From contig JAQGIF010000090.1 in assembly GCA_028291345.1 (NCBI GenBank), positions 1-64,000 of the forward strand: a stretch of DNA of 64,000 bases, written 5' to 3'. Under the pieces are notes generated by a model. It saw only the letters and a list, made by a program, of their open reading frames with translations, was not told where the DNA came from and ran no database searches. Below, in pieces: positions 1,463 through 24,865 of this stretch. Positions within the stretch are counted from its first letter, which is position 1. Each line of letters opens with the position of its first letter. The position numbers and the translations under genes were made by a program. This stretch comes from Rhodospirillales bacterium. GTDB taxonomy: Bacteria > Pseudomonadota > Alphaproteobacteria > BOG-932 > Roseiterribacteraceae.

Positions 1463-1494
1463 AGTCAGCTCCTGTGCAAAAAATGTGAACCCGA

Positions 1495-2349: not shown

Positions 2350-2619
2350 GGTTTGCCTTAAATTGGAAAAGCGACAGATTGTCCTTTTATTTGGCACAAA
2401 CCTAACATCACCTCGACGGCTCGGATCATTCAATTTTCTGAAGCGAGCGATAGAAAAGCGTGCGCCCTCGCGCTTTGGGCACCGACGCGCATCCCATCGG
2501 CTTTTTTTATGACCTAATATGCCATCGGCTATTGGCGTGACCTTCGCCAGGCAAATAGCGTGTCCTTGGTGAGTTGCCATTCGGTAGGCGGGATACGCTC
2601 GATCGCGAAGGCGGTGCTG

Positions 2620-4212: not shown

Positions 4213-4295
4213 AATGTGTGAACTAGAAGCCAAATTTGACCGCCTCCTATATCGACGCGTTATGATCCTCGCCCAGTCCCGGCCACGAGGTTGAA

Positions 4296-6148: not shown

Positions 6149-6151
6149 CAT

Positions 6152-7144
6152 TTGTCGTTGCTCGATGTCGATGATCTGAGGGTGCGCTTCGCATCCGATG
6201 AGGGCGATCTGAATGCGGTTAATGGCCTTTCCTTCAATGTGGAGGCCGGCGAGACCCTCGCTATCGTTGGCGAGTCCGGTTCCGGGAAATCGGTGACCGC
6301 GATGTCGGTGCTTCGGTTGTTGAAATGCCCACCGGCACGGATCTCGGGGCGGGTGCGTTTCAAGGGGAAGGATCTGCTCACCTTGCCAGAGTCCGAGATG
6401 CGGCGGATTCGCGGCAATCAGATCGGCATGATCTTTCAGGAGCCGATGTCGTCGCTTAACCCCGTGATGGCGGTCGGCGCCCAGATTGCGGAGTCGGTTA
6501 GGCTGCATCAAGGCGCTTCGCGCGCACAGGCGCGATCTCGCGCGCTCGATCTCCTCTCGCGGGTCGGCATTCCGGCCCCTGGACGGCGGATGCGTGAATA
6601 CCCCCATCAGTTGTCGGGTGGCATGCGACAGCGCGTGATGATCGCCATCGCGCTGGCCTGCAACCCTGAACTCCTGATCGCTGACGAACCGACGACCGCG
6701 CTCGACGTAACCGTACAGGCACAAATCCTGGATCTGATGCGTGCGCTGAAGGCCGAACTGGGCTCGGCGATCATCTTGATATCGCACGATCTAGGCGTGG
6801 TCGCCCAAATCGCCGACCGGGTGATCATCATGTATGCCGGGCGCATTGTGGAGCAGGGGACCATGAAGCGTATCTTGAGCGCGCCGATGCACCCTTATAC
6901 CAGAGGGCTGCTGGGCGCAATTCCACATCTGAGCGCCGCTCATCGATGCGATGGTCCGCGCCGACGGTTGGTCGAGATTCCTGGCGCAGTTCCCACCCTG
7001 CGCGAGCGTATTGCGGGCTGTGCCTTTGCCCCGCGCTGCGCCCACTGCACCCAGATTTGCCAGGCCATACTGCCGCCGATGGTCGTTACATCGGCCGGGC
7101 ATGAAGTTGCTTGCCACCACGCTGAGGCGCGTACAGCGGCATGA
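6152..7144 (+). CDS. ABC transporter ATP-binding protein, DppD/OppD type
   Basis: A 330-residue ATPase subunit. Walker A 'GESGSGKS' is near residues 40-47, the Q-loop is in '[11 protein letters not shown]', the signature motif is 'LSGGMRQR', Walker B is '[12 protein letters not shown]' and the H-loop is in 'ISHDLG'. The C-terminal oligopeptide/dipeptide-ATPase extension is present with its Cys-rich end '[11 protein letters not shown]'. The TTG start follows the permease stop by three bases and is preceded by GAGGGG. The next ATPase overlaps it by ATGA. Confidence 0.93.
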
Positions 7145-8139
7145 ACCCTATCCTCGAAGTCGTGTCGTTGAAAAAATACTACCCGGTACGGGGTGGTTTA
7201 CTGCCCGGGCGGCGCGGTTTTGTTCAGGCGGTGGAGGATGTCAGCTTCACCATCGCAAAGGGCGAAACCTTGTCGATCGTGGGTGAGAGCGGTTGCGGAA
7301 AATCGACTGTAGGCCGCGCCGTATTGCGGCTGACCGAGCCGACCGAAGGGCAGATACTGCTCGATGGCTGGCGCATCGACAAAATTCCGGTACCGCAACT
7401 CCGAAAACTGCGCCGGCATATGCAAGTCGTTTTCCAGGATCCGTTCTCCAGTCTCAGCCCGCGGATGACCGTGCGCGACATCATCGCCGAGCCGCTGGTG
7501 AATTTCGGCTTGGCCAAGGGACGCGCCGAAATTGACGATCGGGTCGCCGGCCTATTGGATAAGGTCCGGCTGCCGCGCGATGCGATGCGACGCTTGGCGC
7601 ACGAATTTTCTGGCGGACAGCGTCAACGCATCTGTATCGCTCGCGCGCTGGCACCCAGTCCGGCCCTAATCATCTGTGATGAGGCCGTATCTGCGCTCGA
7701 TGTGTCGTTCAAGGCCCAGATCGTCAATTTGCTGACCGACCTTCAGGATGAACTTGGCCTGGCTCTGCTGTTCATCAGCCATGACTTGGCAATCGTCGAA
7801 CATATGACCCATCGGGTCGCGGTTATGTATCTTGGGTCAATCGTGGAGATCGCTGATCGGCGATCTCTGTTCTCGCGTCCCAGCCACCCATACAGCCGGG
7901 CCTTGCTTTCATCTGTCCCGGCGCCCGATCCGACGGCGAGCCGCCGGCGCATCGTGCTAACAGGCGAAGTTCCCAGCCCCATCAATCCTCCTAGCGGCTG
8001 CCGTTTTCACACACGCTGTCCCTATGTCTTCGACCGCTGCCGCACTGAGGTTCCAAAATTGCGCGCACGGACCGAGGCGACCTATTTTGGCGCGACGCAA
8101 CTCGCAGCCTGCCACTTGGACGCTTTACCGGCGCTTTAA
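7141..8139 (+). CDS. ABC transporter ATP-binding protein, DppF/OppF type
   Basis: A 332-residue second ATPase of the importer. Walker A is 'GESGCGKS', the Q-loop block is 'VFQDPFSSLSPRMTV', the signature is 'FSGGQRQR' and Walker B is 'LIICDEAVSALD'. The C-terminal extension ends with 'GCRFHTRCPYVFDRC'. DppF-type subunits heterodimerise with the DppD-type subunit. It is the last gene of the operon and converges on the amidohydrolase gene with only eight bases between the two stop codons. Confidence 0.93.
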   Translation: MNPILEVVSLKKYYPVRGGLLPGRRGFVQAVEDVSFTIAKGETLSIVGESGCGKSTVGRAVLRLTEPTEGQILLDGWRIDKIPVPQLRKLRRHMQVVFQDPFSSLSPRMTVRDIIAEPLVNFGLAKGRAEIDDRVAGLLDKVRLPRDAMRRLAHEFSGGQRQRICIARALAPSPALIICDEAVSALDVSFKAQIVNLLTDLQDELGLALLFISHDLAIVEHMTHRVAVMYLGSIVEIADRRSLFSRPSHPYSRALLSSVPAPDPTASRRRIVLTGEVPSPINPPSGCRFHTRCPYVFDRCRTEVPKLRARTEATYFGATQLAACHLDALPAL

Positions 8140-8147
8140 GCTGCGCA

Positions 8148-9521
8148 TTACGCTGCGGCGGGGGCACCGTTGGCGTGCGGCCTGAGGAAAGCGCCGTATC
8201 CTGGTTCGTTCACAACTTTGCTGCCGTCGAACGCCAGTGTGCCGCGCACATAAGTGGCGCTGACGCGCGCCCGCATCTCACGGCCGTCGAAGGCACTCCA
8301 TTGCACCGCGGACAGGCTTTTGGACGCGTCGAAGATAAAGCGTCCGGGTTCCAACACGACGATATCCGCGTCCGCGCCGATATCGAACGATCCCTTGCGG
8401 TCGCGTAACAGGAAATGCCGGGCCGGCCCTTCGCAGAGCATCTTTACCGCGAGCGTGGGTGACAGGCCGTGCTCCTCGCATCCCGTCCAGAAAGCGGGCA
8501 GCAAGGTTTCCAGCCCAGGGCCGCCGGACGCATTCTTGAAGATATTCGGATCGGACTTTCGCTCCAAACCCCATGAAACATGGTCCGACGACACGAAATC
8601 GCAGTGTCCCGCAGCGATATGGGTCCAGAGACGTTCGACCTCGGCGCGCGGGCGTACCGGCGGATAGTGTTTCAGCTTCGCACCCAGCCGGCGCATGTCG
8701 TTCTCATGGTCCAACATTAAATACTGAACGCAAGTTTCGATCGCTACCTTGTGCCCTGCGCGTTTGTATTCTTCGCAAACCTCAAAACCCCGCGCCAAGG
8801 AGCAATGGACCACGGCTGCGCGCGCGCCTGTCAAAGCACCGAGTTCATAGATCGTGACGGTCGCCAGACTCTCGACCAATGGCGGATGCGCCCGCCCGAA
8901 GGCATCCCAGCCGGTGTCGCCGGCCTCGGTAAGCTGGGCGATATTCTTGCGAGTCAGTTCTTGATCCTGGTTATGGACGCCGCAGGCGAGACCCGCAGGC
9001 GCAATCAGTCGGAATGCATCGAAAAGAACATCTTCGGAAATCCGTGGAAAGCGCACAGGCGCTGCTTCGAATGTCGAGAATTTAAACGCGCAGGCCCCGG
9101 CTTCGATCAGGCCAGGGATTGTCTCGGTACCGGCTGCCTCCGAGATCGTCGCATACAGCGCGACATCGACATGAGATTCACGCTCGACAAGGCTGATTTT
9201 GGCGCGCAGCAGGTCGGCATGCCAGACCGGCTCTGGATCGTCATACGGCATATCGATCATACTGGTGACACCGCCGGCCGCCGCCGCGCGCGAGGCCCAG
9301 CCAATTCCTTCCTGGTTGGCCTGGCTACCGGAGTGGACCTGCCCGTCGATGACTCCGGGAATTACCCATTGCCCGGTAGCATCGAGAAAATCGCGACCTG
9401 CAGGAGGCGTGGCGTCGCCAACCAAGGCGATCTTCCCATCGGAAACTGCAACGAAACCATTTTCGATAATTCGATCGGCGGTGACGATAGTGCCGCGAAC
9501 GACAAGGTCAAAATCACCCAT
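8148..9521 (-). CDS. cyclic amidohydrolase, dihydroorotase/allantoinase/hydantoinase family
   Basis: A 457-residue TIM-barrel amidohydrolase. The N-terminal small beta domain reads 'FDLVVRGTIVTADRIIENGFVAV' and runs into 'GQWVIPGVIDG'. The usual D-x-H-x-H metal motif here reads D-G-Q-V-H, so the first His is Gln (residue 61 from the chosen start). Other expected ligands are present: Lys in 'CAFKFSTFE' (carbamylated in the family), His in 'VVHCS', and Asp in 'SSDHVSWG'. The ATG at 9521 was chosen because AGCAGG lies about nine bases upstream; a TTG at 9530 is possible. Family members open cyclic amides such as hydantoins, dihydropyrimidines or allantoin. The altered ligand may change metal content or activity. 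Divergent from the tandem-LysR gene. Confidence 0.85.
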   Translation of the reverse strand: MGDFDLVVRGTIVTADRIIENGFVAVSDGKIALVGDATPPAGRDFLDATGQWVIPGVIDGQVHSGSQANQEGIGWASRAAAAGGVTSMIDMPYDDPEPVWHADLLRAKISLVERESHVDVALYATISEAAGTETIPGLIEAGACAFKFSTFEAAPVRFPRISEDVLFDAFRLIAPAGLACGVHNQDQELTRKNIAQLTEAGDTGWDAFGRAHPPLVESLATVTIYELGALTGARAAVVHCSLARGFEVCEEYKRAGHKVAIETCVQYLMLDHENDMRRLGAKLKHYPPVRPRAEVERLWTHIAAGHCDFVSSDHVSWGLERKSDPNIFKNASGGPGLETLLPAFWTGCEEHGLSPTLAVKMLCEGPARHFLLRDRKGSFDIGADADIVVLEPGRFIFDASKSLSAVQWSAFDGREMRARVSATYVRGTLAFDGSKVVNEPGYGAFLRPHANGAPAAA

Positions 9522-9843
9522 TGTGAACAACCTGCTGCTTTTAAGAGTCTGAACTCAGGTTTGATTCTAATTCCGGCTTTACAGCCAAAAGGATCGTTTC
9601 CGGAAGTTTGCTGCGAAATTTCACAGCTTCAGATTAGGCAGTGCTGGGATTGCATGGGTAATAGTAATTGCCGACCAAAAACATCGCATTTCTTGAGATG
9701 CCTGCCGGAGACTTTCGGCCAATGACAACATGGCGCACCTTTATGGCTGGATCAGTCCCGGTTACCGTGGCATTGTGCGATGCAGCAGAGATGCATGGAC
9801 TCGTTTGTCCGAAGAGCTGCGAAAGGATTGTTGGCGACGACCG
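9522..9843. other. divergent intergenic region between amidohydrolase and tandem-LysR regulator
   Basis: Roughly 320 bases, AT-richer than the flanking genes. It should contain the promoters of both divergent genes, and the LysR-type protein is the obvious candidate to act here. No convincing -35/-10 pair or T-N11-A box was pinned down by eye. If the regulator starts at the upstream ATG at 9730, the region is about 100 bases shorter. Confidence 0.4.
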
Positions 9844-11766
9844 ATGGTTGCAAGCCCCAACGATATAGAGCGCGCCCCTCGATCGGTGATGAGCCTCACC
9901 CAGATCCTCTCTTTCTTGACCCTCGTTGAAGAGGGCGGGGTTGCGCGGGCGTCTAAACGATTGGGCGTCGGACATTCCACGGTCAGCGCGCATAGCAAGC
10001 TCATTGGCGAGGAAATCGGCCGTCATCAGTTTAGCAGGACTCCAGGCGGGTTTACGGTAACCGCTGCCGGATTGGACGCCTATAACCGCCTTCGCGCGTT
10101 CGTTGCTCACGCCAGTTTTTGCTTCAATTATTTTCGACGTGAAGCGACGGTTGCCGCGAGCTTTGTGACTGTAGCGATGCCGTCCGGCTTTCCCGGATCA
10201 ATGCTGGATTTAGCGGCCAAAAAAGTCAGCCTCCATCTGACAAAAACCGCGCCCGAGATCTGCCTTGTTCCTGCGTATGGCGAAGTCTCACCGACAGAGG
10301 ATCTACTTGGGCTATATTACGGTGAAGCAGAGACCGACGCTCTAACCATTCGGGATCGTTGGATATTGGTTCGCTCCGGTGCGAATATCGGATGGAGCGA
10401 GCGTGTATTGAGTCGCGCCGATCTATTCGATCAGAGAATTCAGGTCCCGAAACTGCCGGCTGAGCTGCATGGAAGTCTTTTGACTCTCGCCGAGATGGCG
10501 CATTTTTCGCTGGAATGGTCGGATAGCGGCATTCAGGGGATTCTTTCTAGTGCTTCTCAACTTCAGAAGTTCTGTGCGATCGTACCGGAAAGTCTTCTTA
10601 ACGGCGGGATGGCTGCCGAGTATTTTGAGTGCGTAGCGATCGAATCTACGGATTGCGACCCAAAAATCTCGATCTTCTGTGCCGCGTACCCTCTTATCGC
10701 CGCCAGGTTGCATGCCGAATTGCAAATGTTGATCCAGGCAAACACTGGTTGCGCGGTGCCGCCGGGCGAACCGGTGCCTTCGGAACCCGAGGCACTTTCG
10801 CTTAAGCACTGCCGGTCCTTCATCGCGCTTTACGAGGAGGGTAACGTCCGGCGCGCGGCGCAGAGACTTTCGATCGTACAACCCGCATTGACCGTGCAAC
10901 TGCATCATATAGAGGAGCAGGCGGGGTGTTCGCTTTTTACGCGTTCCCATCACGGGCTTCAGGCGAACGAACGGGCGGACGTGCTCTATGGGTTGCTCCG
11001 CCCCCTGATTGCGGAATTCAATGCGACTTTGGTTCATCTGCGCTCGGCAGTGAAAAAGGGCGTCTCCCCGGTCCGGATCGGGCTCATTCCGGCACTGGAC
11101 GACGAAAGCCTGATGTCCGAGGGTTTTGCCACAGCTCTCGATAAATGGTCCAGGACGTACGGCGATGGCGTCGCTCAGGTCATGGAAGGTTATTCAAGTA
11201 CTCTGGTGCGATGGTTGCATTCCGGAAAGATCGATTTCGCTTTGATCGACCGGGTGTTCATGGATCCGGCGTTGATCTTCGAGCCGATAGCAGAAGATAC
11301 TATGGCTGTGGTGGTCGATAGTGCTTCCGGGCTAATTCGTCCCGGCCCGGTTACAGTCGAACAACTCGCGCAGCTACCTCTGGTTCTGCCTTCGAGCCGT
11401 CATGGGCTTAGAACCTTGCTCGCGCAAACGCTCCGGCAGCGTGGACTTTCGTTGCAGCCGCGTTTCGAGGTGGATTCGATGGCGGGCTGTCTGAGTTTGG
11501 TCAAGATCGCCCGATATGCGACCATTCTACCCATGGGCTCGGTCTATAAGAGTCGCGATCGGCGCCGGCTTTCAGTCCATGAAATCCGGGAGCCGAGGAT
11601 CATTCGGACAATGTGCCTTGCGCGGTCGCGCGTTAAGCCGAGCAGCCCAGCAGAGCGTAATTTCCTGGAGGAGCTGAGATTGGCCTTTCTCGATAGCGGC
11701 GATCACCGCGAATCCGGGATGAACATCATGGCGCCGCAACGGGCGGAGCCATCACACGTATCCTAG
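9844..11766 (+). CDS. double LysR-type transcriptional regulator (two LysR units in one polypeptide)
   Basis: A 640-residue protein, about twice the LysR norm of ~300. A first LysR winged helix begins 'MSLTQILSFLTLVEEGGVARASKRLGVGHSTVSAH' (split here at the helix-turn-helix) and is followed by about 230 residues resembling a diverged effector domain. Near residue 316 a second LysR helix-turn-helix starts: 'SFIALYEEGNVRRAAQRLSI', then 'QPALTVQLHHIEEQ' and 'LFTRSHHGL'. A canonical effector domain follows ('VRIGLIPALDDE', 'LPLVLPSSRHGLRTLL'). Start codons at 9730, 9844 or 9889 are all possible and none has a good ribosome site; 9889 matches the usual LysR N-terminus. Likely regulates the divergent amidohydrolase and perhaps the downstream monooxygenase and receptor, which is inference. 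Confidence 0.8.
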   Translation: MVASPNDIERAPRSVMSLTQILSFLTLVEEGGVARASKRLGVGHSTVSAHSKLIGEEIGRHQFSRTPGGFTVTAAGLDAYNRLRAFVAHASFCFNYFRREATVAASFVTVAMPSGFPGSMLDLAAKKVSLHLTKTAPEICLVPAYGEVSPTEDLLGLYYGEAETDALTIRDRWILVRSGANIGWSERVLSRADLFDQRIQVPKLPAELHGSLLTLAEMAHFSLEWSDSGIQGILSSASQLQKFCAIVPESLLNGGMAAEYFECVAIESTDCDPKISIFCAAYPLIAARLHAELQMLIQANTGCAVPPGEPVPSEPEALSLKHCRSFIALYEEGNVRRAAQRLSIVQPALTVQLHHIEEQAGCSLFTRSHHGLQANERADVLYGLLRPLIAEFNATLVHLRSAVKKGVSPVRIGLIPALDDESLMSEGFATALDKWSRTYGDGVAQVMEGYSSTLVRWLHSGKIDFALIDRVFMDPALIFEPIAEDTMAVVVDSASGLIRPGPVTVEQLAQLPLVLPSSRHGLRTLLAQTLRQRGLSLQPRFEVDSMAGCLSLVKIARYATILPMGSVYKSRDRRRLSVHEIREPRIIRTMCLARSRVKPSSPAERNFLEELRLAFLDSGDHRESGMNIMAPQRAEPSHVS

Positions 11767-11917
11767 GCATTGCAAATACCGCGCCTTTGTTACGGGCTCC
11801 TTTGCATCCAAGGTTTTCTATCGCATCTCCCGCAAGTTTGAATGACTCCACCGATCCTGCCGGATGCTAAGCCAAAATGGAATAAATTTCGCGGCCCGCT
11901 ATTGTTGGAGGTTCGTG

Positions 11918-13207
11918 TTGAGCAAGTTTCATCTTGGTTGGTTTCTTGGACCAGGCATCACGATACAAGGCTGGAACGAGCCGGGATTTGGTCACGGTTA
12001 TGATTGGACAAAGCCTGATCTGTTCGTCGATGCGGCGCGCGCGTTAGAGCGTGCTTGCTTTGACGTCTTGATCCTGGAAGACACGTCGGCCGTTCCATAC
12101 ACCTATAAAGGCAGTATGGATTTCTATCTGAAGCACGCGGCGATGACGCCGAAGTTCGATCCGGTAATGCTAACGCCGTATCTAATCGCGGCGACTTCCA
12201 AAATCGGTCTCGCTCCGACGCTGACGACCACTTTCTATCCGCCCTGGCTGCTCGCGCGCACGATGGCGACCTTGGACCATTATTCCAGCGGTCGCATCGG
12301 CTGGAATATCGTGACCGCCACCAGCGACGCGGCCGCGCAGAATTACGGGTTGGATAAGCAGATCGAACATGACTTGCGCTATGACATGGCCGATGAATTT
12401 ATCGATTGCGTCACACAGTTATGGGAGGCGTGGGAGCCTGACGCCGTGGTGATGGATGAGGCTACCGGGATGTTTATCGATCCGACTAAGGTTAAGGCGA
12501 TCCATTTCGAGGGAAAATATTACAAGACGCGTGGACCCCTGAACGTGCCACGATCACCGCAGGGCAAGCCGGTATTCGTAGCGCCGGGCGGTTCTCCGCG
12601 CGGGCGCAAATTCAGCGGCCGCAACGCGGAAATCGTGCTTGCAGGCGGTGCCACGGCCGCGGACATGAAAGACTATCGCGAAGAGGTTTTGAAGAACGCT
12701 GTTGCCTACGGCCGCGATCCTAAGACGGTCAAAACCTTGTTCACCTGTGTGCCGACGATCGTAAAGAGCAAAAGCGATGTCGAGGACACTAAGTACATGA
12801 TGCAGAAGATGAAGGAAAAGCGGATCGAGCACGGACTCGCCGCAATGTCCTTCCTCTCCGGTATCGATTTTTCGAAATTTGATCTCGACGCACCGGTTGG
12901 GGAGATCAAAACCAATGGCATGCAGACCATGCTGAAAAGCTTTGGGAACCCGAACGATTCACTGCGCCAGATCATGAGTCGGCCCAACGAGTTCAGCACG
13001 ATGGTCGGCACGGCCGACGCGATCGCTGGACTGATGCAAGATACGATGGAAGAGGTCGGCGGCGATGGCTTTCTGATCGCCGGTCAATTTAAACCCAAAT
13101 ATGTCACGTCTATTGTCGATGAGCTTGTCCCGGCCTTGCAAAAGCGGCAACTAACCCGCACAGAATATGGCCACGAACAGTTCCGAGATAATCTTATGGC
13201 CTTCTGA
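11918..13207 (+). CDS. FMN-dependent monooxygenase of the NtaA/SnaA/DszA (SoxA) bacterial luciferase-like family
   Basis: A 429-residue cytoplasmic flavin monooxygenase that uses FMNH2 supplied by a separate reductase. Family landmarks are 'WFLGPGITIQGW' at the N-terminus, 'ARALERACFDVLILED', 'LARTMATLDHYSSGRIGWNIVTA', 'EGKYYKTRGPLNVPRSPQGKPV' (two adjacent blocks) and 'AGGSPRG'-like loops. The TTG start at 11918 was chosen because GGAGG lies six bases upstream; the longer frame from 11864 has no such site. Characterised relatives attack nitrilotriacetate, EDTA, dibenzothiophene sulfone, dimethyl sulfide or pristinamycin precursors. No flavin reductase gene is seen next door. Confidence 0.88.
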   Translation: MSKFHLGWFLGPGITIQGWNEPGFGHGYDWTKPDLFVDAARALERACFDVLILEDTSAVPYTYKGSMDFYLKHAAMTPKFDPVMLTPYLIAATSKIGLAPTLTTTFYPPWLLARTMATLDHYSSGRIGWNIVTATSDAAAQNYGLDKQIEHDLRYDMADEFIDCVTQLWEAWEPDAVVMDEATGMFIDPTKVKAIHFEGKYYKTRGPLNVPRSPQGKPVFVAPGGSPRGRKFSGRNAEIVLAGGATAADMKDYREEVLKNAVAYGRDPKTVKTLFTCVPTIVKSKSDVEDTKYMMQKMKEKRIEHGLAAMSFLSGIDFSKFDLDAPVGEIKTNGMQTMLKSFGNPNDSLRQIMSRPNEFSTMVGTADAIAGLMQDTMEEVGGDGFLIAGQFKPKYVTSIVDELVPALQKRQLTRTEYGHEQFRDNLMAF

Positions 13208-13601
13208 GAACTTTGCGGCGTAGGCCGATCTGGTGGCGTTGCGAATGCAATCGCAGGAGATTTCTACATTCGAGTTCATTTCAAAATACGCACAGCAGAG
13301 AATCAACGATCGATTTGATCGTGCATGCTCGGGTGTCAACGGTTGGCCCGGGCGTCGATCGCAAGTTTGAGAGCGCTCAAATTGCCGCACCGCGACAATT
13401 CTATTTCCTCCGGCCGATAAAAGATCGGTGCACCACAAATGGCACTAGCTGAAATAGCGGCCGTCGAAATAACAACGTAAAAGCAATGTGTTAGCAGCTT
13501 ACAAGATTTCGAACGCGGGAATTGGATTCGCTGAAACGACCGCTGCCCGCCTTTTTCAAAAAAATTCGAAATTCTTCGTAAGAAAATTATTTTCTTGAGG
13601 G

Positions 13602-13629
13602 TTGACTCGGCGCCGCAACGCAATATACC
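13602..13629 (+). promoter_or_regulatory. candidate sigma-70-type promoter for the TonB receptor-OmpA gene
   Basis: TTGACT at 13602-13607 and TATACC at 13624-13629 are separated by 16 bases, close to the housekeeping consensus spacing. Transcription from here would give a leader of roughly 130 bases before the ATG at 13769. The assignment is by pattern only. Confidence 0.4.
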
Positions 13630-13720
13630 TTTCGAGGTAAGAGATTTGGAGTTTTGGAGCCGTCCGGCGCCAAGCCCAATAAATCCACAATTTAATCCTT
13701 GTTTGTCGGTTTTTGAATGC

Positions 13721-13740
13721 ACTTCCGCGTGTACGGAAGT
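13721..13740 (+). promoter_or_regulatory. perfect interrupted palindrome in the leader of the receptor gene
   Basis: ACTTCCG, a six-base spacer and CGGAAGT form a perfect 7-bp inverted repeat at 13721-13740, ending 12 bases before the AAGGAGGG ribosome site at 13753-13760. It could be an operator for a dimeric regulator or a small RNA hairpin next to the ribosome site. The sequence does not tell which. Confidence 0.45.
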
Positions 13741-13768
13741 AAATCCAAAAAAAAGGAGGGGTGTTGTC

Positions 13769-16570
13769 ATGCGCGCTGACGGTAACAAAATCTTACGTTC
13801 AATACATTTTTCACGAATCTTGCTTGCTTCCGCCGCAGCGATATCGACGCTAAGCTATCAGGCGATGGCGCAGGATATTCCAGGCGATCAACCGGGAGCA
13901 TCAACTGGTCAACTTGAGGAGGTTTTAGTAACAGCCCGGCGGCGATCCGAAAACCTGCAAGCGACGCCCGTCGCCGTTACAGCTCTTTCCCCGGCCGAAA
14001 TTGCACAAACCAACACACGTAATTTTCAAGATTTGCGCGGCCTCGTGCCGAATTTGGAAATCACACCGCTCAATTCTGGTGGTGGCCTTAATCTGTCAGT
14101 CCGAGGCATCGGGCAAACTAGTACACAGGTCAACGTTGATGCGAAGGTCGGGTTTTATTTGGATGATCTTTACATCGCGCGCGCCGACGGCAACGCTCTT
14201 CACTTTTATGACATCGACACCCTCCAAGTTCTAAAGGGGCCGCAGGGGACTCTATTCGGCAAGAATACGTTGGGCGGCGCGGTTCTGCTGAACACGAAAC
14301 GGCCGGGCGACGAATATGGCGGCTATGTCGACGTGCGCGTTGGGAATTATGATCGCATCGATACAGAAGGTGCGGTCAATATTCCGATAACCGACAAAAT
14401 ATTGACCCGGTTCAGTTTTAGAACTGAAAACGCGGACGGTTATATTACTCATAAGCTCGATTCCGGAACCAGCAACAATCAAGACGATAAATCCGGCCGT
14501 ATTCAAATTCGTGTATTACCGACCGACGGGCTGACTGTCGATCTGCTCGGCGAGTATAACGAGCTCGATGACAACGGTCAGCCTAGTATCGCGGTGGGGT
14601 GCAACCCCAATGCTAGCTACCAAAAAAACTATAACGCCCTCCATCTTGTGCCATTTTGTACTTCATACCCGTCTTTGAATAAGCAATACGAAGTCTATGG
14701 CGGTGCCACGCTCAGCATCCCGACGGATTCACTAATCACTGACAAAGGTATTGCCGGCGCTTTGTCCAATCAGGCGGGGCTGACCTATGGGGGTCACCCC
14801 AGCCCATTCGACAAGGCCAGGGTTGGAACGCTCAATCTTCGCATTAATTATCAAATCAATGATGAGCTAACGATTAAATCGGTAACCGGATTCCGCCGGG
14901 GCGTGTCGAATTTCTATACGGCTGCGGAGGATGTTCCTAATGACATCTATAGCGAGCTCGACCACACGACAACCGAACAGATCAGCCAGGAGCTTGATCT
15001 CAGCGGCAATTATTTCGATGGTGCGCTGACCTTTGTCTCAGGGCTCTACTATATCAATCAGGTAACGCGGTTTTCCCAGAATACCGGCCCGGACTGGATC
15101 GATCCGATCGGTTACTCTTATAATGCCAGCAATAATTTTTCCAGCTATGCCGCTTTCATTCAGGGCACTTATAAAATATTCGACGATTTGGCGCTTACAC
15201 TCGGCGCTCGCTATAATTATGATCGTAAGGAAGCCCAAAGCTCAGTTTATCTTCAGAGGGTCTTCACCGGTTCCTGTTCGACGTTTCAAGGGGCGTTCAC
15301 GACAGGCGCGGCGTGCGGCGGCTATGCAACGGGCAACGGGGCGCATAATTGGTACGCTTTTGATCCACGCGCGCAGCTGCAGTACCAAGTCACGCCCGAC
15401 ATAATGACCTATGTCAGCGCGACGCACGGCTATGAGTCCGGGGGTTTCAATCAGCAGCTCGGAGCCACGCTTCCCGGCAATTCGCTGATCCCGTATGCCC
15501 GTGAGCATATTTGGGACTACGAGGGAGGAGTTAAGACCGAGTGGCTCGATCATCGGCTGCGAGTCAATGTAGATGGATTTTATCAACAATTCTCCAACTA
15601 TCAGGCAACAGTAATCCTCACCTACAACGGCGTGACCACTCGGGCCATTCAAAACGCAGCTTCGGTGCATGAAGATGGCGTCGAACTGGAAGTGGAGGCC
15701 CTCCCCACTCCGGACCTCGAGATCCGGGCCAATGGCGCATATCTCGACCAAGCCTACGATCAGATTGGGGCCGGCGTAACGGCCTTCACCTTGAGCAGTC
15801 CCGTGACGTCCGCTCCGCGATTCGAGGGCAGCATCGCGGTGGATTATACCTTTCATCTGCCATCCGACGCCACTGTGGTCACCGACCTCAACTATCGCTG
15901 GGTCGATAGCAAGCCGGGATGCACCAGCCCGGTGGGAGCTTGCACAGCGCCGGCGTACGGACTCCTAGGGGGCAAGATCACCTACAACAGCCCTGATGGA
16001 GTCTGGAGCGCTGGTTTGTGGGGCTCGAACCTGACCGGCAAATACTATTATTACGCGATCAATACACTGGGCACAGCGCTGGCAAACATGGGTGTCGGCA
16101 CAGTAACTCCTGGGCAGCCCCGTGAGTTCGGTGCTGAGGTAAAATACAATTTTGGTGGGGCCTCAGCAGCTGCCGAAACCGCGTCGGCACCTTATGTCCC
16201 GCCGCCGGTCGTCGCCCCGGCGGTTGCCCACAGCTATATGGTCTTCTTCGACTTCAACAAGTCGGACCTGACGCCCCAGGCGGCCAACATTGTGGATCAG
16301 GCCGCGCATAATGCGGGGCCGGCCAAGGTGACCAAGCTGGAAGTGACCGGTCACACCGACACGGCCGGGTCTGACGCCTACAACATGCGTCTCAGCCGCC
16401 GCCGCGCGGAATCGGTTGCGGCCCAGTTGGAGAAGGACGGAATTCCTTCCAGCGAGATCGCGATTTTCGCCAAGGGCAAGCATGACCTGCTGGTGCCGAC
16501 CGCCGATGGCGTGAAGGAGCCGCAGAACCGGCGTGTTCAGATCGTATATTCCGGTGAACCCGCCGCATAA
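13769..16570 (+). CDS. TonB-dependent receptor fused to a C-terminal OmpA-type peptidoglycan-binding domain
   Basis: A 933-residue outer-membrane protein. It has a signal peptide ending AMA|QD near residue 35, a TonB box in 'EEVLVTARRR', a plug domain ('AVTALSPAEIAQTN', 'LNLSVRGIG', 'LKGPQGTLFGKNTLGGAV') and a 22-strand-type barrel to about residue 795. The barrel closes with 'FGAEVKYNF', but the frame continues through a Pro/Ala linker into an OmpA C domain (about residues 822-930): 'VFFDFNKSDLT', 'VTGHTDTAGS', 'LSRRRAESV' and 'EPQNRRVQI'. The Asp (HTD) and Arg (SRRR) that hold diaminopimelate in OmpA are present. The start has AAGGAGGG eight bases upstream. Neighbours suggest uptake of the substrate of the monooxygenase or lyase-like proteins. 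Receptors normally end at the barrel, so this fusion is unusual. Confidence 0.92.
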   Translation: MRADGNKILRSIHFSRILLASAAAISTLSYQAMAQDIPGDQPGASTGQLEEVLVTARRRSENLQATPVAVTALSPAEIAQTNTRNFQDLRGLVPNLEITPLNSGGGLNLSVRGIGQTSTQVNVDAKVGFYLDDLYIARADGNALHFYDIDTLQVLKGPQGTLFGKNTLGGAVLLNTKRPGDEYGGYVDVRVGNYDRIDTEGAVNIPITDKILTRFSFRTENADGYITHKLDSGTSNNQDDKSGRIQIRVLPTDGLTVDLLGEYNELDDNGQPSIAVGCNPNASYQKNYNALHLVPFCTSYPSLNKQYEVYGGATLSIPTDSLITDKGIAGALSNQAGLTYGGHPSPFDKARVGTLNLRINYQINDELTIKSVTGFRRGVSNFYTAAEDVPNDIYSELDHTTTEQISQELDLSGNYFDGALTFVSGLYYINQVTRFSQNTGPDWIDPIGYSYNASNNFSSYAAFIQGTYKIFDDLALTLGARYNYDRKEAQSSVYLQRVFTGSCSTFQGAFTTGAACGGYATGNGAHNWYAFDPRAQLQYQVTPDIMTYVSATHGYESGGFNQQLGATLPGNSLIPYAREHIWDYEGGVKTEWLDHRLRVNVDGFYQQFSNYQATVILTYNGVTTRAIQNAASVHEDGVELEVEALPTPDLEIRANGAYLDQAYDQIGAGVTAFTLSSPVTSAPRFEGSIAVDYTFHLPSDATVVTDLNYRWVDSKPGCTSPVGACTAPAYGLLGGKITYNSPDGVWSAGLWGSNLTGKYYYYAINTLGTALANMGVGTVTPGQPREFGAEVKYNFGGASAAAETASAPYVPPPVVAPAVAHSYMVFFDFNKSDLTPQAANIVDQAAHNAGPAKVTKLEVTGHTDTAGSDAYNMRLSRRRAESVAAQLEKDGIPSSEIAIFAKGKHDLLVPTADGVKEPQNRRVQIVYSGEPAA

Positions 16571-16702: not shown

Positions 16703-18496
16703 ATGTTCTTGCGGCGACGGAAAAAGTGGCTGTCAGGCTATTTGTTTATTTTTGCGTGCGGCATTGTGCCGGCTTCTGCCCAAGTAACGCCTTACGAAGC
16801 AATTCATCCGATATCAGCCGACAAGACGATCACGCTTACCGGCCGAGACATGACAATCGATCAATTGATACAAATCGCGCGCGACGGTGCAAAGGTCCAA
16901 TTGACCGATGAGGCGCGCCGGCGATCGGCGGATGCTTATGGCTTGCTTCTAGAGGGCGCTACCGAGGGCGTTGCGATTTACGGCTTCAATCGTGGCTCCG
17001 GCGCGCAGCGTGAAACCAAATTATTCGAGGGCGATCCATCATCTCCTGCTAATGAAGGCGGTCAACGCCGGCGGGAAGAGGCGCGGTTCCGTGAAGAGGG
17101 GCCGCAGGATGGCTACGGCCCGGAAATCGCAAGCGAAGAAATCGTGCGCTCCGCGATGGCGGTTCGTGCGAACGCTATGAGTTACGACGCAGCCAGCCCT
17201 GAATTGACTCAAATGCTGGTCGATATGTTGAACCACCGCGTAACGCCGGTTGTCCAATCACGTGGCAGCATCGGTGAGGGCGACCTTGAGCAGATGCACA
17301 ATATCGCCGGCGCAATGGTTGGCGAGGGTGATGCCTATTTCGAGGGCGTGCGCATGCCCGCACTGACCGCTCTAGAAAAGGCTGGGTTGAGGCCTCTGAA
17401 AATCGCCGCCAACGATGATTTCCGGACGCTGACCAGCAGCGATGCCTATACAACGGGTCAAGCGGCCCTGCTTGTGTCAGATGGAAAACGGGCACTCGAC
17501 TGGGCGGACTTGATCTATGCGATGGATTTGGACGGCATGAACAGCAGTGTTACGCCGCTCAGCCAACCGGCTCGCATCGGTCGTCCTTTCCAATGGCTTA
17601 ATTGGAATGCGGAGCGAGTCTTAGATATGTTGAAGGGTAGCTATCTGTTCGATGATGACCCGACGCGGATCATCCAGGATCCGGAAAGTTTGCGGGCTTC
17701 CTCCGTTCGCCAAGGTTCCGCATGGCAGGCATGGGCGGCGTTGAAACAGATCGTTCAAATTCAAATGAACTCATCGGACCATAATCCCGTCGTCCGAGTT
17801 GGGGCCGAACCAAAAGATTCCTGGGAACTCGGCACCCAACAATTCATGAAATACTACGTGAAGGGTGGGAAGCACTCGGATGGCAAGCACGGCTATATTC
17901 TATCGAACGCAAACTGGGATCCCTATCCGCTTGTGAATCAAGTCGAGGCCTTTTCCCTTGCGCTTGCCAATATGGATGTGGCGGTTGTGCTGCGGATAGA
18001 ACGCTTCAACAATCCTTTCTTCACGGTGATCACGCCGAAACAAATACTGGACCGCTCTCAAACTGAAGGCGTTGCGAGCTTTGCGCCGCCGGCTAATGAG
18101 AAAGTCGCCGTTGATCTTTGGCAGGACATTCAAGCTCAGGCGAGCCCCGTAATGCCCGAAGGTCAGGCGATCGTTTCGACGGTGGAGGATCTTCAAGGGC
18201 AATCACGGCTCAAGATCGCCCGCGCGCGGCAAGTGGTCGCCGATACGATCGATCTGCTGGGCCAAGATTTTCTGACCGCAACCTTTTGGATGGATTTACG
18301 TCAGGGCCAGGACCCCAGCCGCACTTTCGGGGCGGCACCAACCGCAGCATGGCAAGCATTTCGAAAAATTATGGCGTTTCAGCGCAGCCCAGCGGTGCGG
18401 TTTAGCGTACCGCCCGGAGCGATCGCGGCAACGTTTCTCAGGTCCAATTCAGCGGCGGAATTCATGTCGGCAGCCGAGAACACGCTTCCAAATTGA
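16703..18496 (+). CDS. exported aromatic amino acid lyase (HAL/PAL) homologue lacking the MIO Ala-Ser-Gly
   Basis: A 597-residue protein with a signal peptide (basic FLRRRKKW, hydrophobic core, ASA|Q near residue 26), so periplasmic or secreted. The body follows the histidine/phenylalanine ammonia-lyase fold: 'TLTGRDMTIDQLIQIARDGAKV', the catalytic-Tyr loop 'IYGFNRGSG' (Tyr93), 'AVRANAMS', 'QDPESLRAS' (Arg331) and 'MNSSDHNPVV' (Asn356 to Pro362). In HAL/PAL the motif G-S-V-G-A-S-G-D-L makes the MIO cofactor. Here residues 188-195 read G-S-I-G-E-G-D-L, one residue shorter and with no Ser, so MIO cannot form as known. AGGAG lies six bases before the ATG. A paralogue at 21776-23572 shares the same change. 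Known family members are cytoplasmic. Function unknown: binding protein, different chemistry or inactive. Confidence 0.85.
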   Translation: MFLRRRKKWLSGYLFIFACGIVPASAQVTPYEAIHPISADKTITLTGRDMTIDQLIQIARDGAKVQLTDEARRRSADAYGLLLEGATEGVAIYGFNRGSGAQRETKLFEGDPSSPANEGGQRRREEARFREEGPQDGYGPEIASEEIVRSAMAVRANAMSYDAASPELTQMLVDMLNHRVTPVVQSRGSIGEGDLEQMHNIAGAMVGEGDAYFEGVRMPALTALEKAGLRPLKIAANDDFRTLTSSDAYTTGQAALLVSDGKRALDWADLIYAMDLDGMNSSVTPLSQPARIGRPFQWLNWNAERVLDMLKGSYLFDDDPTRIIQDPESLRASSVRQGSAWQAWAALKQIVQIQMNSSDHNPVVRVGAEPKDSWELGTQQFMKYYVKGGKHSDGKHGYILSNANWDPYPLVNQVEAFSLALANMDVAVVLRIERFNNPFFTVITPKQILDRSQTEGVASFAPPANEKVAVDLWQDIQAQASPVMPEGQAIVSTVEDLQGQSRLKIARARQVVADTIDLLGQDFLTATFWMDLRQGQDPSRTFGAAPTAAWQAFRKIMAFQRSPAVRFSVPPGAIAATFLRSNSAAEFMSAAENTLPN

Positions 18497-18620: not shown

Positions 18621-20396
18621 ATGTCTGTCGAGACCAGCCAAGCCGTGACGCATTTATTGACGGCGGCACTTGCTCATTCGCAGGCCGGTCGCCTTCATGA
18701 AGCCGCTATCGCATATCGCCAGTTGCTGCTCGTCGTTCCCGATCATGCAACCGCCAACTATAATTTGGCGGTAACGTTGAAGGGGCTTGGACGGCTGGAT
18801 GAAGCGGCCGCCCAATATCAGCGAACGCTTATCGTTAAACCTGACAACCCCAAAGCTCATAATAATCTGGGCGCAATTCTGACGCTTCAGGGAAAAGACC
18901 ACGCCGCCGCCGCTCATTATGAGCGGGCGTTAGTTCTTCAACCGCATTATGCTAACGCCCATTACAACTACGCCAATCTTCTGAGAAAACGCGGGGAAAT
19001 TCCCCGCGCCATTACCCACTACTGGCAAGCTTTGCTGAGCAAGCCGGACGATGCCGAGATACGTAACAATCTCGGTATAGCGTTGGTGGCCAATGGCCAA
19101 GGGGACGAGGCAATCCTACAGTTTCAGCAGGCGTTGGCCCTTCGTCCGGATTATGCTGAAGCCTATAGTAATCTGGGATCCGCATTCGAGGACCAGGGAC
19201 GCACCGACGAAAGCCTTGCCTGCTTCAATATGGCTCTCGAACTGAAACCAGCTTACGCCGACGCGCATTGCAACCTTGGACGCGCGCTGCACGCCCAAGA
19301 CCGCCTCGCCGAGGCCGAACTGCATTACGAGCTTGCGCTCGCTCTCGATCCAACACATGCCGAATCACATAATAATTTTGGTTTTCTGTCGCAGCAGGTT
19401 GGCCGGATAGACGTGGCGCTAGCCCGCTATGGGCGTGCTCAGGAACTCAAGCCGAACTATGCCGACGCGCATTGGAATGAAGCATTGGCGCGCTTACTGT
19501 CAGGTGACTTCGCCGCAGGCTGGCGCAAATATGAGTGGCGTTGGAGGCGAAAGGAAACGCCCCCAAGGATATTCGCCGTGCCACTGTGGGATGGTGGCGA
19601 CCTGACCGGGAAGACCATTCTGCTTCATGCGGAACAAGGATACGGCGACGCCATCCAATTCATCCGGTATGCCGCGCTTGTCAAAAAGCGGGGCGGTCTA
19701 GTCCTCGTCGAATGTTCGGAACCGTTGCGGAGGCTTTTCGCCAGTGCCCCCGGTATCGACCGGTTGGTTTCCGCCGATGAACCTTTCCCGCTTTTCGATT
19801 GCCATGCGCCCTTGCTCAGCCTGCCGGCCATACTAGGCACGATGCTCGAGACAATTCCCGCGGACACTCCTTATCTTCGCGCCGAGTCCGACCTTGTGCA
19901 AAAATGGCGAAATCAATTTTCTCAACCGTCCCGGCGCAAGATCGGGCTGGCATGGCGCGGTAATCCGACGCACAGCAACGACCGCAAAAGGTCGATACCG
20001 GCTACCGCGATTGCAGACCTGGGCCGCATGGCTGGGATCGAATTGATCAGCTTGCAGGTTGATACTACGCTCGACGAAATCGCCGCCTTTTCACCGGTGA
20101 TTCTCTACAATATGGGTTCATCTCTCCACGACTGGGCGGATACCGCGGCCTTGGTCGAGGCGCTCGACCTGGTGATAACGGTGGACACATCGATTGCGCA
20201 TCTGGCGGGAGCATTGGGTAAGCCAGTTTGGGTGCTCCTGCCATTTGCGCCGGACTGGCGGTGGCTTCTCGACCGATGTGATAGCCCCTGGTATCCGACC
20301 ATGCGTTTGTTCCGACAGCACGCGCCAGGAGATTGGACGCGGGTCCTAAAGGAAATTCGCGCGGCTTTGGGGAGTGTCAGCATCGCCGGCTCATGA
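18621..20396 (+). CDS. TPR-repeat protein with C-terminal GT-B glycosyltransferase-like domain
   Basis: A 591-residue protein. Residues from about 8 to 310 are 34-residue tetratricopeptide repeats with the A-x-x-x-Y-x-x-A-L pattern ('AAAQYQRTLIVKPDNPKAHNNLG' and the like, at least eight copies). The C-terminal 250 residues ('WRWRRKETPPRIFAVPLW', 'LHAEQGYGDAIQFIRYA', 'KIGLAWRGNPTHSNDRKRS', 'VDTSIAHLAGALGKPVWVLL') match the heptosyltransferase/GT9-like domain found behind TPRs in many proteobacteria. There is no signal peptide, so cytoplasmic. Family members are often involved in protein or flagellin glycosylation, but most are uncharacterised. It lies 124 bp behind the exported lyase-like gene on the same strand. 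Confidence 0.85.
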   Translation: MSVETSQAVTHLLTAALAHSQAGRLHEAAIAYRQLLLVVPDHATANYNLAVTLKGLGRLDEAAAQYQRTLIVKPDNPKAHNNLGAILTLQGKDHAAAAHYERALVLQPHYANAHYNYANLLRKRGEIPRAITHYWQALLSKPDDAEIRNNLGIALVANGQGDEAILQFQQALALRPDYAEAYSNLGSAFEDQGRTDESLACFNMALELKPAYADAHCNLGRALHAQDRLAEAELHYELALALDPTHAESHNNFGFLSQQVGRIDVALARYGRAQELKPNYADAHWNEALARLLSGDFAAGWRKYEWRWRRKETPPRIFAVPLWDGGDLTGKTILLHAEQGYGDAIQFIRYAALVKKRGGLVLVECSEPLRRLFASAPGIDRLVSADEPFPLFDCHAPLLSLPAILGTMLETIPADTPYLRAESDLVQKWRNQFSQPSRRKIGLAWRGNPTHSNDRKRSIPATAIADLGRMAGIELISLQVDTTLDEIAAFSPVILYNMGSSLHDWADTAALVEALDLVITVDTSIAHLAGALGKPVWVLLPFAPDWRWLLDRCDSPWYPTMRLFRQHAPGDWTRVLKEIRAALGSVSIAGS

Positions 20397-21775: not shown

Positions 21776-23572
21776 CTATTTTTTCGGATAGGCCTTGCCG
21801 TCGTTTGCCTCGGGTTCGCTAATCGGCGCAAACATGGATGCCGGATTGGTCCTGATAAAAGTGATCGCTGTCAGGGAGGGCGAAAGTGTAGCCGCCGGGT
21901 CGGGCTTTAGGGGCGCAACCTTGCGGAACGCTTCCCAGACCGCCGTCGCCGCGGGGCCAAAAGTCCGTGTCGCATCCTGTGCTCTCCGGACGTCCAGCCA
22001 CCGCGTTCCGGTCGCCAGGTCGGCCCCAAGTAGGCGGAACGTATCGTCGACCGCGGCTTGGGCACGCTGCGCCTTAATGCGAGTCTGGGCCTCCAGCTCC
22101 TCGACGCCGTCGCTGCCACCATAACCCTCAGGCGGAACTGGCATGATCTGAGCCTGAACGTCCTGCCAGATCTCATGCTGGCTATATCCGTTGCGATAAG
22201 GACCGCCCAAGGTTTTCAGGATGTCCTGTGTACCTAGACCGGTAAAGAATTCGCTGCCGAACCGCTCGGTCCGCAGCATGATTGCGATGTCCATGTTAGC
22301 GAGCGCGATCGTAAAGGCTTCCAGGTCGTTGGCGAGCGGATATGGATCCCAATTGGCGTTGGAAACGATAAAGCCGTGTTTACCGTTACTGTTTTTCCCA
22401 CCCTTCACATAATATTTCAGCATTTCAGGCGTGTTCAAATCCCAGGAATCCTGGGGCGAAATATCCGCTCGAATCGCCGGGTTATGATCCGAGCTATTCA
22501 ACTGGGTTACGACATCGTCGCGCAGCATGGCCCACATCTGCCATGCCGAGGCTTGGCGGATCGAAGAGGCGCGCAGGCTTTCTGGATCCTGTATGATCCG
22601 TCCTTTATCGTCGCTGAACAGATAGCTGCCCTTGATCATTTCCTTGACACGGTTCGCATCCCAATTCAGCCATTTGAACGGCCGGTCGGTCTGAACCAGG
22701 TAGCTGAGGGGCGTGACACTGCTATTCATGCCGTTAATGTCGATCGCGTAGGTCAGATCGGCCCATTGAAGCGCCTGATGTGCGTCGGCAACGATGAAAA
22801 CCGCCTGCGCCGTTGCATAGGCATCGCTGCTGGTGAGCGCATTGTCGTCCGCCGCGAAAGGTTGGATCGGCGTCAGGCCGGCCTGCTGAAGCGCCTGCGC
22901 CGCGGGCACGCGAACGCCTTTGTAGTAGGCGTCGCCTGCACCGACCATGGTGGCGCCGATATTATTCAAAATGGGCAGGTCACCTTCGCCCACGGTTCCA
23001 CGCGACTGCATCACCGGAGTCACCCCCTTATTCAGGAGGTCGAGCAACATTTGGGCCAACTGCGGGCTTGGCGCGTTGTAAGTCATGGCATTGGCGCGGA
23101 CGACCATGACCGCGCGCACCAGTGCTTCGTCAAGGATTTCCGGTGGATCGCCGCTGATTGCGCCACGCTGGAAATTCGCCAGCATTCGCTTTTCCAGAAA
23201 AGCCTTATTCTCCGGCGTTAAGGGATCACCATCGAAAATATGGGTTTCACGCTGGCCGCCGGCGCCGCGCGTGAACCAATAGACCGAAACGCCTTCAGCT
23301 GGTGCCTCGAGCAATAACCCATAATTATTTATCTCTCGCTGCTTGGCTTCCGCACTTAGCTGGACTTTTGCGCCACCGCGAGCGACCGCAAGAACCTGCT
23401 CGATCGTCAAATCGCGGCCGGTCAAGGTGATCGTCTTATCGCCGTTCGCCCAATTGATTGCGCGGTATGCCTGTCCGCTATCTGCCTGAGCTTCGAGCGC
23501 GAAAGACGCCATGGCAGCTATTAACAAGGCGCAGAAAGCACTGCCGTCAGGCAATCGCCATTGAATTTGCAT
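21776..23572 (-). CDS. second exported aromatic amino acid lyase homologue lacking the MIO Ala-Ser-Gly
   Basis: A 598-residue paralogue of the protein at 16703-18496, clearly similar along its whole length. A signal peptide ends near ALEAQA|DS (about residue 30). Matching blocks are 'TLTGRDLTIEQVLAVARGGAKV', 'VYWFTRGAG' (Tyr98), 'VRANAMTYNAPSPQLAQMLLDL', 'QDPESLRASS' and 'LNSSDHNPAI'. The MIO region reads G-T-V-G-E-G-D-L with Glu196 where Ala-Ser should be, so the deletion and replacement are shared by both copies. It is in the opposite orientation to the first copy, and the TPR gene, a transposase remnant and parDE lie between them. About 200 bp after its stop, towards parDE, holds nothing recognisable. 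Role unknown. Confidence 0.85.
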   Translation of the reverse strand: MQIQWRLPDGSAFCALLIAAMASFALEAQADSGQAYRAINWANGDKTITLTGRDLTIEQVLAVARGGAKVQLSAEAKQREINNYGLLLEAPAEGVSVYWFTRGAGGQRETHIFDGDPLTPENKAFLEKRMLANFQRGAISGDPPEILDEALVRAVMVVRANAMTYNAPSPQLAQMLLDLLNKGVTPVMQSRGTVGEGDLPILNNIGATMVGAGDAYYKGVRVPAAQALQQAGLTPIQPFAADDNALTSSDAYATAQAVFIVADAHQALQWADLTYAIDINGMNSSVTPLSYLVQTDRPFKWLNWDANRVKEMIKGSYLFSDDKGRIIQDPESLRASSIRQASAWQMWAMLRDDVVTQLNSSDHNPAIRADISPQDSWDLNTPEMLKYYVKGGKNSNGKHGFIVSNANWDPYPLANDLEAFTIALANMDIAIMLRTERFGSEFFTGLGTQDILKTLGGPYRNGYSQHEIWQDVQAQIMPVPPEGYGGSDGVEELEAQTRIKAQRAQAAVDDTFRLLGADLATGTRWLDVRRAQDATRTFGPAATAVWEAFRKVAPLKPDPAATLSPSLTAITFIRTNPASMFAPISEPEANDGKAYPKK

Positions 23573-23910
23573 TTATTCTCTCATTCTTAATTTGGGGTTA
23601 GCAAGGGACGAGCACGCCGCGTCGGCAGGCGCCAAATAATTAATCTATGGGAAAATTATATTCTTGCAGAGAATAATGAGTGGCCCGGCGTCAGCTGTCA
23701 ATATTCAAATAAACTCGCTAGCGGAGAAGGCGCGCTCGATCGTTGGTTTCAGTTGGTGTCGGCTTTCGGGCGGCGGACGAAAACCGGAACTTTCCCAGTG
23801 CTTCTGGGATATTCTTGCGAGACCCGAGCGCCCGGGCGACCTCATAATTTGTCTGCGCACATTACAAAGTGGCGTACGATCCATGGTCGCATTGTCGAGG
23901 CCAAGTAGGC
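23573..23910. other. intergenic region upstream of the second lyase-like gene
   Basis: About 340 bases with no supported gene. It includes an AT-rich stretch near 23580-23680 that probably contains the promoter of the minus-strand lyase-like gene. Frames open on the plus strand here lack family features and run into the degraded acetolactate-synthase-like gene. Confidence 0.4.
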
Positions 23911-24865
23911 ATGCCCAAAGGTTCGGATCTTCTCGTTACCGCATTCGAAAACGTGGGTGTCGATCGAATATTCGGCATCGCCGGCGAAGAGAATCTCGAT
24001 TTCGTAGAAACGCTCCGCACGTCAAAGATCGAGCTCGTTCTAACCAGCTAAGAGCAGGCGGCGGCGTTCATGGCGGCAACCCAATAATGTCTCACTGGCC
24101 ACTCGGGCATCTGCCTGCCGACCTTGGAGTTCGGCGCCTTGAACCTTACGACCGGGGCGGCTTACGCGCATTTGGGCGGCTCATGTTGATGATCACAGGC
24201 CAGAAGGCGATCAAGGGCGCTCGCCAAGCGCTCTTTCAGAGTGTCGATATCGCGGCCGCGATGCGACCGCTTACGAAGAGGAGACGACAGGTCTTCTCGG
24301 CCGCATCTATCCCAGCCTCGTTCGCGATGCTTTTTCGGAAGAACGCCCCGGACCGGTGCACCCTGGAATTGCCGCAGGACATAGCCGCCGAGGAAGCGGC
24401 CGCACCCCTCGTGCCGCCGCACGCGATCGAACGCCCTATCCGGCCGCCTTCGGCGCTGTCGCCAAGCTTCTGAGCCCTCACCGCAAAGTCCTGCCGGTTT
24501 GTGGCGATAGCGGCTTCATGATGAACAACCAGGAACTCGAAACCACCGTTCGTTTGAGACTCGATCTTGCCGTGCTGATCATCAACGATTGGGCCTATGG
24601 CATGATCCGTTGGAAGCAGGCACTGGATAATTTCGCCGACTTCGGCATGACAATCGGCAATCTTGACTTTGTTGCCTATACACAGTCCTGCGGCGCCCAT
24701 GGTAATCGAGTGGCTCCACTAAGGACCTTGTCCCTGGGTTTGATGCGGCGGCTTTCATTGCCGGCGGTGTCCATCTTGTGACAGTGCCCATCGATTGCAG
24801 CGAGAATACGCGCGTCCTTCGTCGATGAACTGGGCGGGCGAGCAGATGGCGTCGAATTGGCCTAA
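23911..24865 (+). pseudogene. degraded acetolactate synthase-like thiamine-diphosphate enzyme
   Basis: The ATG at 23911 starts 'GSDLLVTAFENVGVDRIFGIAGEENLDFVETL', the N-terminus of acetolactate synthase large-subunit relatives. A stop codon at 24049-24051 falls where the family has 'LTRHEQAAAFMAA', and the family text continues in pieces: 'EQAAAFMAAT', 'LTTGAAYAHLG', 'ELPQDIAAEEA'. It then jumps, with roughly 200 residues missing, to the ThDP-binding part 'VCGDSGFMMNNQELETTVRL' and 'LIINDWAYGMIRWKQ', and ends near TAA at 24863. There are multiple frame changes, a stop and an internal deletion: a dead gene. Confidence 0.8.

Follow-up and report, generated by a model that had tools for sequence, protein, structure and literature searches.

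In PF00221 enzymes that carry MIO, this group activates a poor amine leaving group; a primary amine needs such activation, whereas trimethylammonium, being quaternary, leaves well by itself. The ergothionase of T. denticola (6s7j/6s7q), in which four catalytic residues are reportedly essential, has the PF00221 fold and no MIO, and carries an S-I-G-E-G-D loop (SSIGEGD in 6s7j), a conserved Tyr, QDPxSxR and N-x-x-D-x-N-P motifs and an acid after NF/NW. A 2026 paper (PMC13405746) describes ergothionase as MIO-less and regards it as confined to a few genera. In NCBIfam, the Ert pathway of ergothioneine breakdown is represented by thiourocanate hydratase (NF058530), ErtD (NF058538) and ErtE (NF058540), and genes of this pathway lie near exported PF00221 lyases in the genome studied here, in Sphingomonas formosensis (L059) and in an alphaproteobacterial MAG (L035).

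Two such exported lyases, W2 and W1, are encoded in the window, by which we mean the whole 64,000-nucleotide stretch analyzed. From their sequences, export signals, clade, selection, active-site signatures, fold and gene context, we infer catalysis, substrate, periplasmic site and the pairing of paralogues with substrates: both are probably MIO-independent, trimethylamine-eliminating lyases of the ergothionase type that act in the periplasm on ergothioneine or a related betaine.

Two exported lyases with a shortened loop

21776–23572, minus strand: W2, exported MIO-less PF00221 lyase of 598 aa, ATG start, intact frame
22976–22999, minus strand: codons of the altered MIO loop of W2, G-T-V-G-E-G-D-L (residues 192–199)
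23673–23701, minus strand: weak promoter-like match, TTGACA-17-CATTAT, ~100 bases upstream of W2
16703–18496, plus strand: W1, exported MIO-less PF00221 lyase of 597 aa, old paralogue, intact frame
17264–17287, plus strand: codons of the W1 loop, G-S-I-G-E-G-D-L (residues 188–195)

W2 covers the whole PF00221 model (282.8 bits, cut-off 27.3) and falls below the NCBIfam cut-offs for hutH (142 versus 539 bits) and phe_am_lyase (80 versus 519); neither W1 nor W2 matched any ergothionase or Ert lyase model in NCBIfam. The genome also encodes a HutH protein (contig C280) with a G-S-V-G-A-S-G-D-L loop. Histidine ammonia-lyase HutH in general shares the fold and overall active-site frame of W2 but, unlike W2, contains the MIO-forming Ala-Ser-Gly, has HAL-type Asn-Gly and N-F-H sites and lacks a signal peptide. 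Compared with the HutH of this genome, W2 and W1 have a single Glu in place of Ala-Ser, so neither protein has an Ala-Ser-Gly to cyclize to MIO. The first-pass annotation had reported this substitution in W2, and its reading is exact at residues 192–199; its further claims, that W2 has a signal peptide of its own and that two intact frames (GTVGEGDL in W2, GSIGEGDL in W1) carry the altered loop, also hold. Both signal peptides are plausible, with a hydrophobic core followed by AQA in W2 or ASA in W1. We list the promoter-like match as weak because such matches are no commoner here than by chance. Beside W2 lies a thiamine-pyrophosphate enzyme remnant (23664–24781, with TPP_enzyme_C at 24356–24781), probably a decayed gene, and a ParE-type toxin-like gene (PF05016; 20945–21256, minus strand) lies between W1 and W2.

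The pair of copies noticed at first is an undercount, as the genome encodes six exported paralogues: W1, W2, three copies from contig C211 and a sixth, degenerate copy from contig C216. W1 and W2 are 53–55% identical. Contig C211 also encodes a very divergent cytosolic PF00221 protein (L009:18105-19634), which has GQGGAGE at the MIO-loop position, adjoins a LysR gene and UbiD/UbiX genes and falls outside the exported and ergothionase groups.

Relationship to ergothionase and to MIO enzymes

The best PDB sequence match of W2 is T. denticola ergothionase (6s7j, E 1e-34; next match 3e-22). Its AlphaFold model (pLDDT 86) also matches 6s7j best in Foldseek (E 8e-27, with histidine ammonia-lyase at 7e-23). 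W2 shares with this ergothionase the fold, the absence of MIO, the loop and the motifs described above. The two differ in that the T. denticola chain lacks a signal peptide and opens directly with the domain, and identity is about 21% over the structural alignment; W2 also has an additional stretch around residues 373–400 and W-rich motifs (SNANWDPYP). The W2 loop is one residue shorter than the MIO loop, follows the pattern G-E/A/Q-G/A-D and lacks the MIO tripeptide, as is typical of ergothionases. Column comparison identifies further features common to the exported and ergothionase-like proteins and absent from HAL, namely a GE[GA]D loop, Ser-x-Asn/Asp in place of Asn-Gly, N-S-S-D-x-N-P (Asp362) and N-[FW]-[DE] in place of N-F-H (Asp409 for His). 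Three HAL-type residues are retained in the exported clade: the catalytic base Tyr (Y98), the QDPxSxR arginine (R334) and the acid corresponding to HAL E414 (E491).

About 70 relatives of W2 and W1 form one clade with 100/100 support, apart from MIO-containing groups, in a tree computed without the MIO-loop columns; the final version omits the cytosolic C211 protein and L082, both very long rows, and uses the full T. denticola sequence. A single 100/100 branch sets the ergothionases and the exported clade apart from MIO HALs and from other aromatic lyases; the ergothionase-like proteins form a grade rather than a clade. The phylogeny proposed earlier as a check thus places both copies in a single exported, conserved-Glu clade. 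The stem of this clade is long (about 1.9 changes per site), and its members are 27–31% identical to ergothionase-like proteins. W1 and W2 do not group together within the clade, and for each of them genes from other genera are closer than the other copy. The W2 subclade (17 rows in the final tree, 20 in the first), which excludes W1, contains Gammaproteobacteria MAGs, Sphingomonas formosensis and the C211a paralogue. Because the two are not each other's nearest relatives, their earlier description as old duplicates is right as to age; horizontal transfer is an alternative to duplication.

Could the altered loop simply reflect random decay of an MIO enzyme, with W2 as a dying duplicate? Duplicates do decay as a general matter, but this explanation is contradicted by the intact frames, by the loop Glu, which is kept in 69 of 71 clade members with Ala-Ser-Gly at the site in none, and by dN/dS values of 0.03–0.09 in unsaturated clade pairs (Mesorhizobium, Labrys, Aestuariivirga and two MAGs); we regard it as close to untenable. 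The altered loop is not a chance feature, since Glu is so widely kept and Ala-Ser-Gly never occurs, and the first-pass claim that the motif is selected agrees with these data. The W1–W2 pair that was suggested for dN/dS is itself saturated (pS 0.74), and closer pairs were used instead; these are far below 1, including W2 and its 74%-identical orthologue from a same-genus genome (about 0.08, dS near saturation). The exported clade is under strong purifying selection.

If the exported proteins were pseudoenzymes or binding proteins, then after the loss of MIO their role in the periplasm would be confined to binding an aromatic zwitterion, perhaps for delivery to a transporter. MIO is indeed absent and inactive copies do exist, but the catalytic Tyr, Arg and acid are kept together with the ergothionase signatures in about 70 members and purifying selection is strong, making this reading improbable for the clade. 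The C216 copy (L011:7973-9688) is such an inactive case: it has lost the catalytic Tyr and QDP, its GEGD loop now reads GGPE, and sites are also decayed in its relative from genome G246. Across two genomes of the genus, the pair formed by the C216 copy and L076 has a dN/dS of about 0.14 at near-saturated dS, and this type of paralogue could be a maintained pseudoenzyme. Very improbable, in our judgment, is an ammonia-lyase or aminomutase that acts on ordinary amino acids by a new, MIO-independent mechanism. The PF00221 fold and retained catalytic Tyr would suit such an enzyme, but motif, tree and neighbors indicate trimethylamine; we know of no precedent for amine elimination without MIO in this fold, and a literature search for MIO-lacking ammonia-lyases found none.

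Ergothionase-like proteins from Burkholderia arboris (L100), Sinorhizobium meliloti pSymA (L098), Polaromonas (L097) and Paracoccus saliphilus (L099) resemble W2 in their MIO-less GE/GA/GQ-A-D loop, active-site signatures and apparent signal peptides, and differ from it in lying outside the exported clade. Most are annotated as histidine or aromatic amino acid ammonia-lyases, or are unannotated. By a simple ad hoc rule rather than a trained predictor, signal peptides occur in 64 of 71 exported-clade members, 4/4 ergothionase-like proteins and 0/14 MIO and other lyases; in the Polaromonas protein, the signal peptide lies upstream of the annotated start. We therefore rejected export as the defining property of the clade, as the Burkholderia, Sinorhizobium and Paracoccus proteins outside it also have signal peptides. 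The distinct exported family proposed by the first-pass annotation stands insofar as the clade is separate from MIO enzymes, but its motif is already that of ergothionase and export is not peculiar to it.

Gene neighborhood and candidate substrates

770–2580, minus strand: two class I methyltransferase-like genes (770–1522 and 1495–2580)
2560–8139, plus strand: SBP_bac_5-type ABC importer (binding protein, two permeases, two ATPases)
8148–9530, minus strand: ErtD, hydantoin-5-propionate amidohydrolase of ergothioneine utilization (NF058538, 690 bits, cut-off 600)
9730–13207, plus strand: LysR regulator with a long N-terminal extension (9730–11766) and NtaA/DmoA-type FMN monooxygenase (11864–13207), putative parts of the pathway
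13595–16570, plus strand: TonB-dependent receptor with a fused OmpA domain, immediately upstream of W1
18621–20396, plus strand: TPR protein weakly similar to glycosyltransferase-9, located between W1 and W2

Several of these neighbors recur beside lyases elsewhere. Methyltransferase-like homologues lie near the Sphingomonas formosensis lyases (L059, L053), a homologue of the TPR protein follows the lyase in a same-genus locus (L047), and homologues of the TonB-OmpA receptor lie near lyases of C211, C216 and other genomes. Receptors with a C-terminal, peptidoglycan-binding OmpA domain recur by the exported lyases of this genome (window 13595–16570, L009:6673-9588 and L011:13099-15906). The ABC importer is a possible uptake partner. 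The LysR-type regulator has about 350 extra N-terminal residues with no Pfam match.

The C211 cluster combines three exported lyases with a TonB-OmpA receptor, ErtE (564 bits, cut-off 520) and UbiD/UbiX. About 10–25 kb further on are an electron-transfer flavoprotein-like gene, an Fe-S protein, a trimethylamine-dehydrogenase-like flavoprotein, a heme N-demethylase, GcvT, a GlnA-like enzyme, sarcosine oxidase beta (SoxB) and glutamate-synthase-like genes of the N-methylglutamate type; these trimethylamine and N-methylglutamate step names interpret general family matches. The L059 locus of Sphingomonas formosensis runs from a methyltransferase gene through a lyase, thiourocanate hydratase (990 bits, cut-off 930), MFS and ErtE to ErtD. 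The L035 MAG has thiourocanate hydratase, MFS, a TonB-OmpA receptor, two lyases, Amt, GcvT and trimethylamine monooxygenase (832 bits, cut-off 675). A further, conserved gene set, consisting of a lyase, a cytosolic PhnD-like protein, a PF00487 membrane desaturase-like protein and an MFS transporter, occurs in Gammaproteobacteria MAGs and C211 (L013, L017, L023, L024, L041, L061 and others).

Methylamine or Ert genes are present in 15 of 50 de-replicated lyase flanks (0.875 Mb) versus 2 of 60 arbitrary same-genome stretches taken from contig starts (0.862 Mb; p 1e-4). ErtD exceeds its cut-off in 6/43 host genomes and 3/288 background alphaproteobacteria (p 2e-4), with Gammaproteobacteria among the hosts and lineage uncontrolled. 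Thiourocanate hydratase reaches cut-off in 3/43 hosts and 4/289 background genomes (p 0.05), and we count it only as adjacency evidence because this co-occurrence is weak.

Some observations weigh against ergothioneine as the substrate. Thiourocanate hydratase was not found in the 97%-complete draft genome (G000), whose sole urocanase-family match is cut by a contig end, and the few hosts that reach cut-off imply that many may use another substrate or route. Moreover, the clade stem is long, Mesorhizobium and Labrys lyase copies stand alone with no pathway genes nearby, and a TonB receptor would be unneeded for a 229-Da molecule when porins are present. With the hydratase mostly missing, some copies isolated and the stem long, the substrate may differ between paralogues.

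One alternative keeps periplasmic trimethylamine elimination but makes the main substrate another aromatic betaine, such as hercynine, tryptophan or tyrosine betaine, or a larger TonB-imported conjugate, with the paralogues dividing the substrate range. The six diverged paralogues in one genome would fit, as would the position of HAL Tyr280, which varies between Glu, Leu and Ile within the clade, and the TonB receptors that adjoin many lyase copies. UbiD/UbiX decarboxylase pairs near lyases in C211 and Komagataeibacter suggest that some acrylates are decarboxylated. The product of hercynine would go to ordinary urocanase. Most hosts lack thiourocanate hydratase, and a urocanase-family gene (E ≤ 1e-100) is present in 39/43 hosts versus 73/289 background genomes, a contrast in which genome size and lineage are confounding factors. 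Ergothioneine breakdown is, however, the only pathway with substrate-specific genes found near the lyases, and we consider this alternative rather unlikely, though well short of negligible. That the exported clade is a separate family of periplasmic betaine trimethylamine lyases, with dedicated TonB receptors, substrates other than free ergothioneine and a range shared among paralogues, is a possibility we hold tentatively.

Proposed mechanism and wider implications

For exported lyases of the ergothionase type, we propose that W2 and W1 would bind an aromatic amino-acid betaine in the periplasm, most likely ergothioneine or a close derivative such as hercynine or ergothioneine sulfonate. The conserved Arg would hold the betaine carboxylate, a base would remove the beta proton and trimethylamine would depart by 1,2-elimination, leaving an acrylate such as thiourocanate. 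MIO would be unneeded in W2 and W1 because trimethylammonium leaves readily without activation. The MFS transporter could then import the acrylate, and in hosts with all the enzymes, thiourocanate hydratase, ErtD and ErtE would convert it to glutamate. Methylamine enzymes would oxidize the released trimethylamine.

The chemistry would not be new, as trimethylamine-lyase activity is already known. What appears to be new is the exported ergothionase-type branch, which is unrecognized in annotation and has strong but circumstantial links to ergothioneine and trimethylamine breakdown; we found no published description of a widespread branch of this kind. Should the members of the clade prove active, the release of trimethylamine from betaines resembling ergothioneine would be much wider in soil and peat Pseudomonadota and would take place outside the cytoplasm, and the annotation ‘aromatic amino acid ammonia-lyase’ would be concealing it. 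More generally, one fold would drop its protein-derived cofactor when the leaving group shifts from ammonia to trimethylamine, with many natural sequences available to test.

Shortened loops also occur on the HAL side of the tree, where PF00221 proteins at L057:12848-14335, L077, L078, L079, L082 and L103 carry GSIGAADL, GSLGASDL or GADDL, each with one residue fewer than the MIO motif. These are possibly a second, independent MIO-less lineage.
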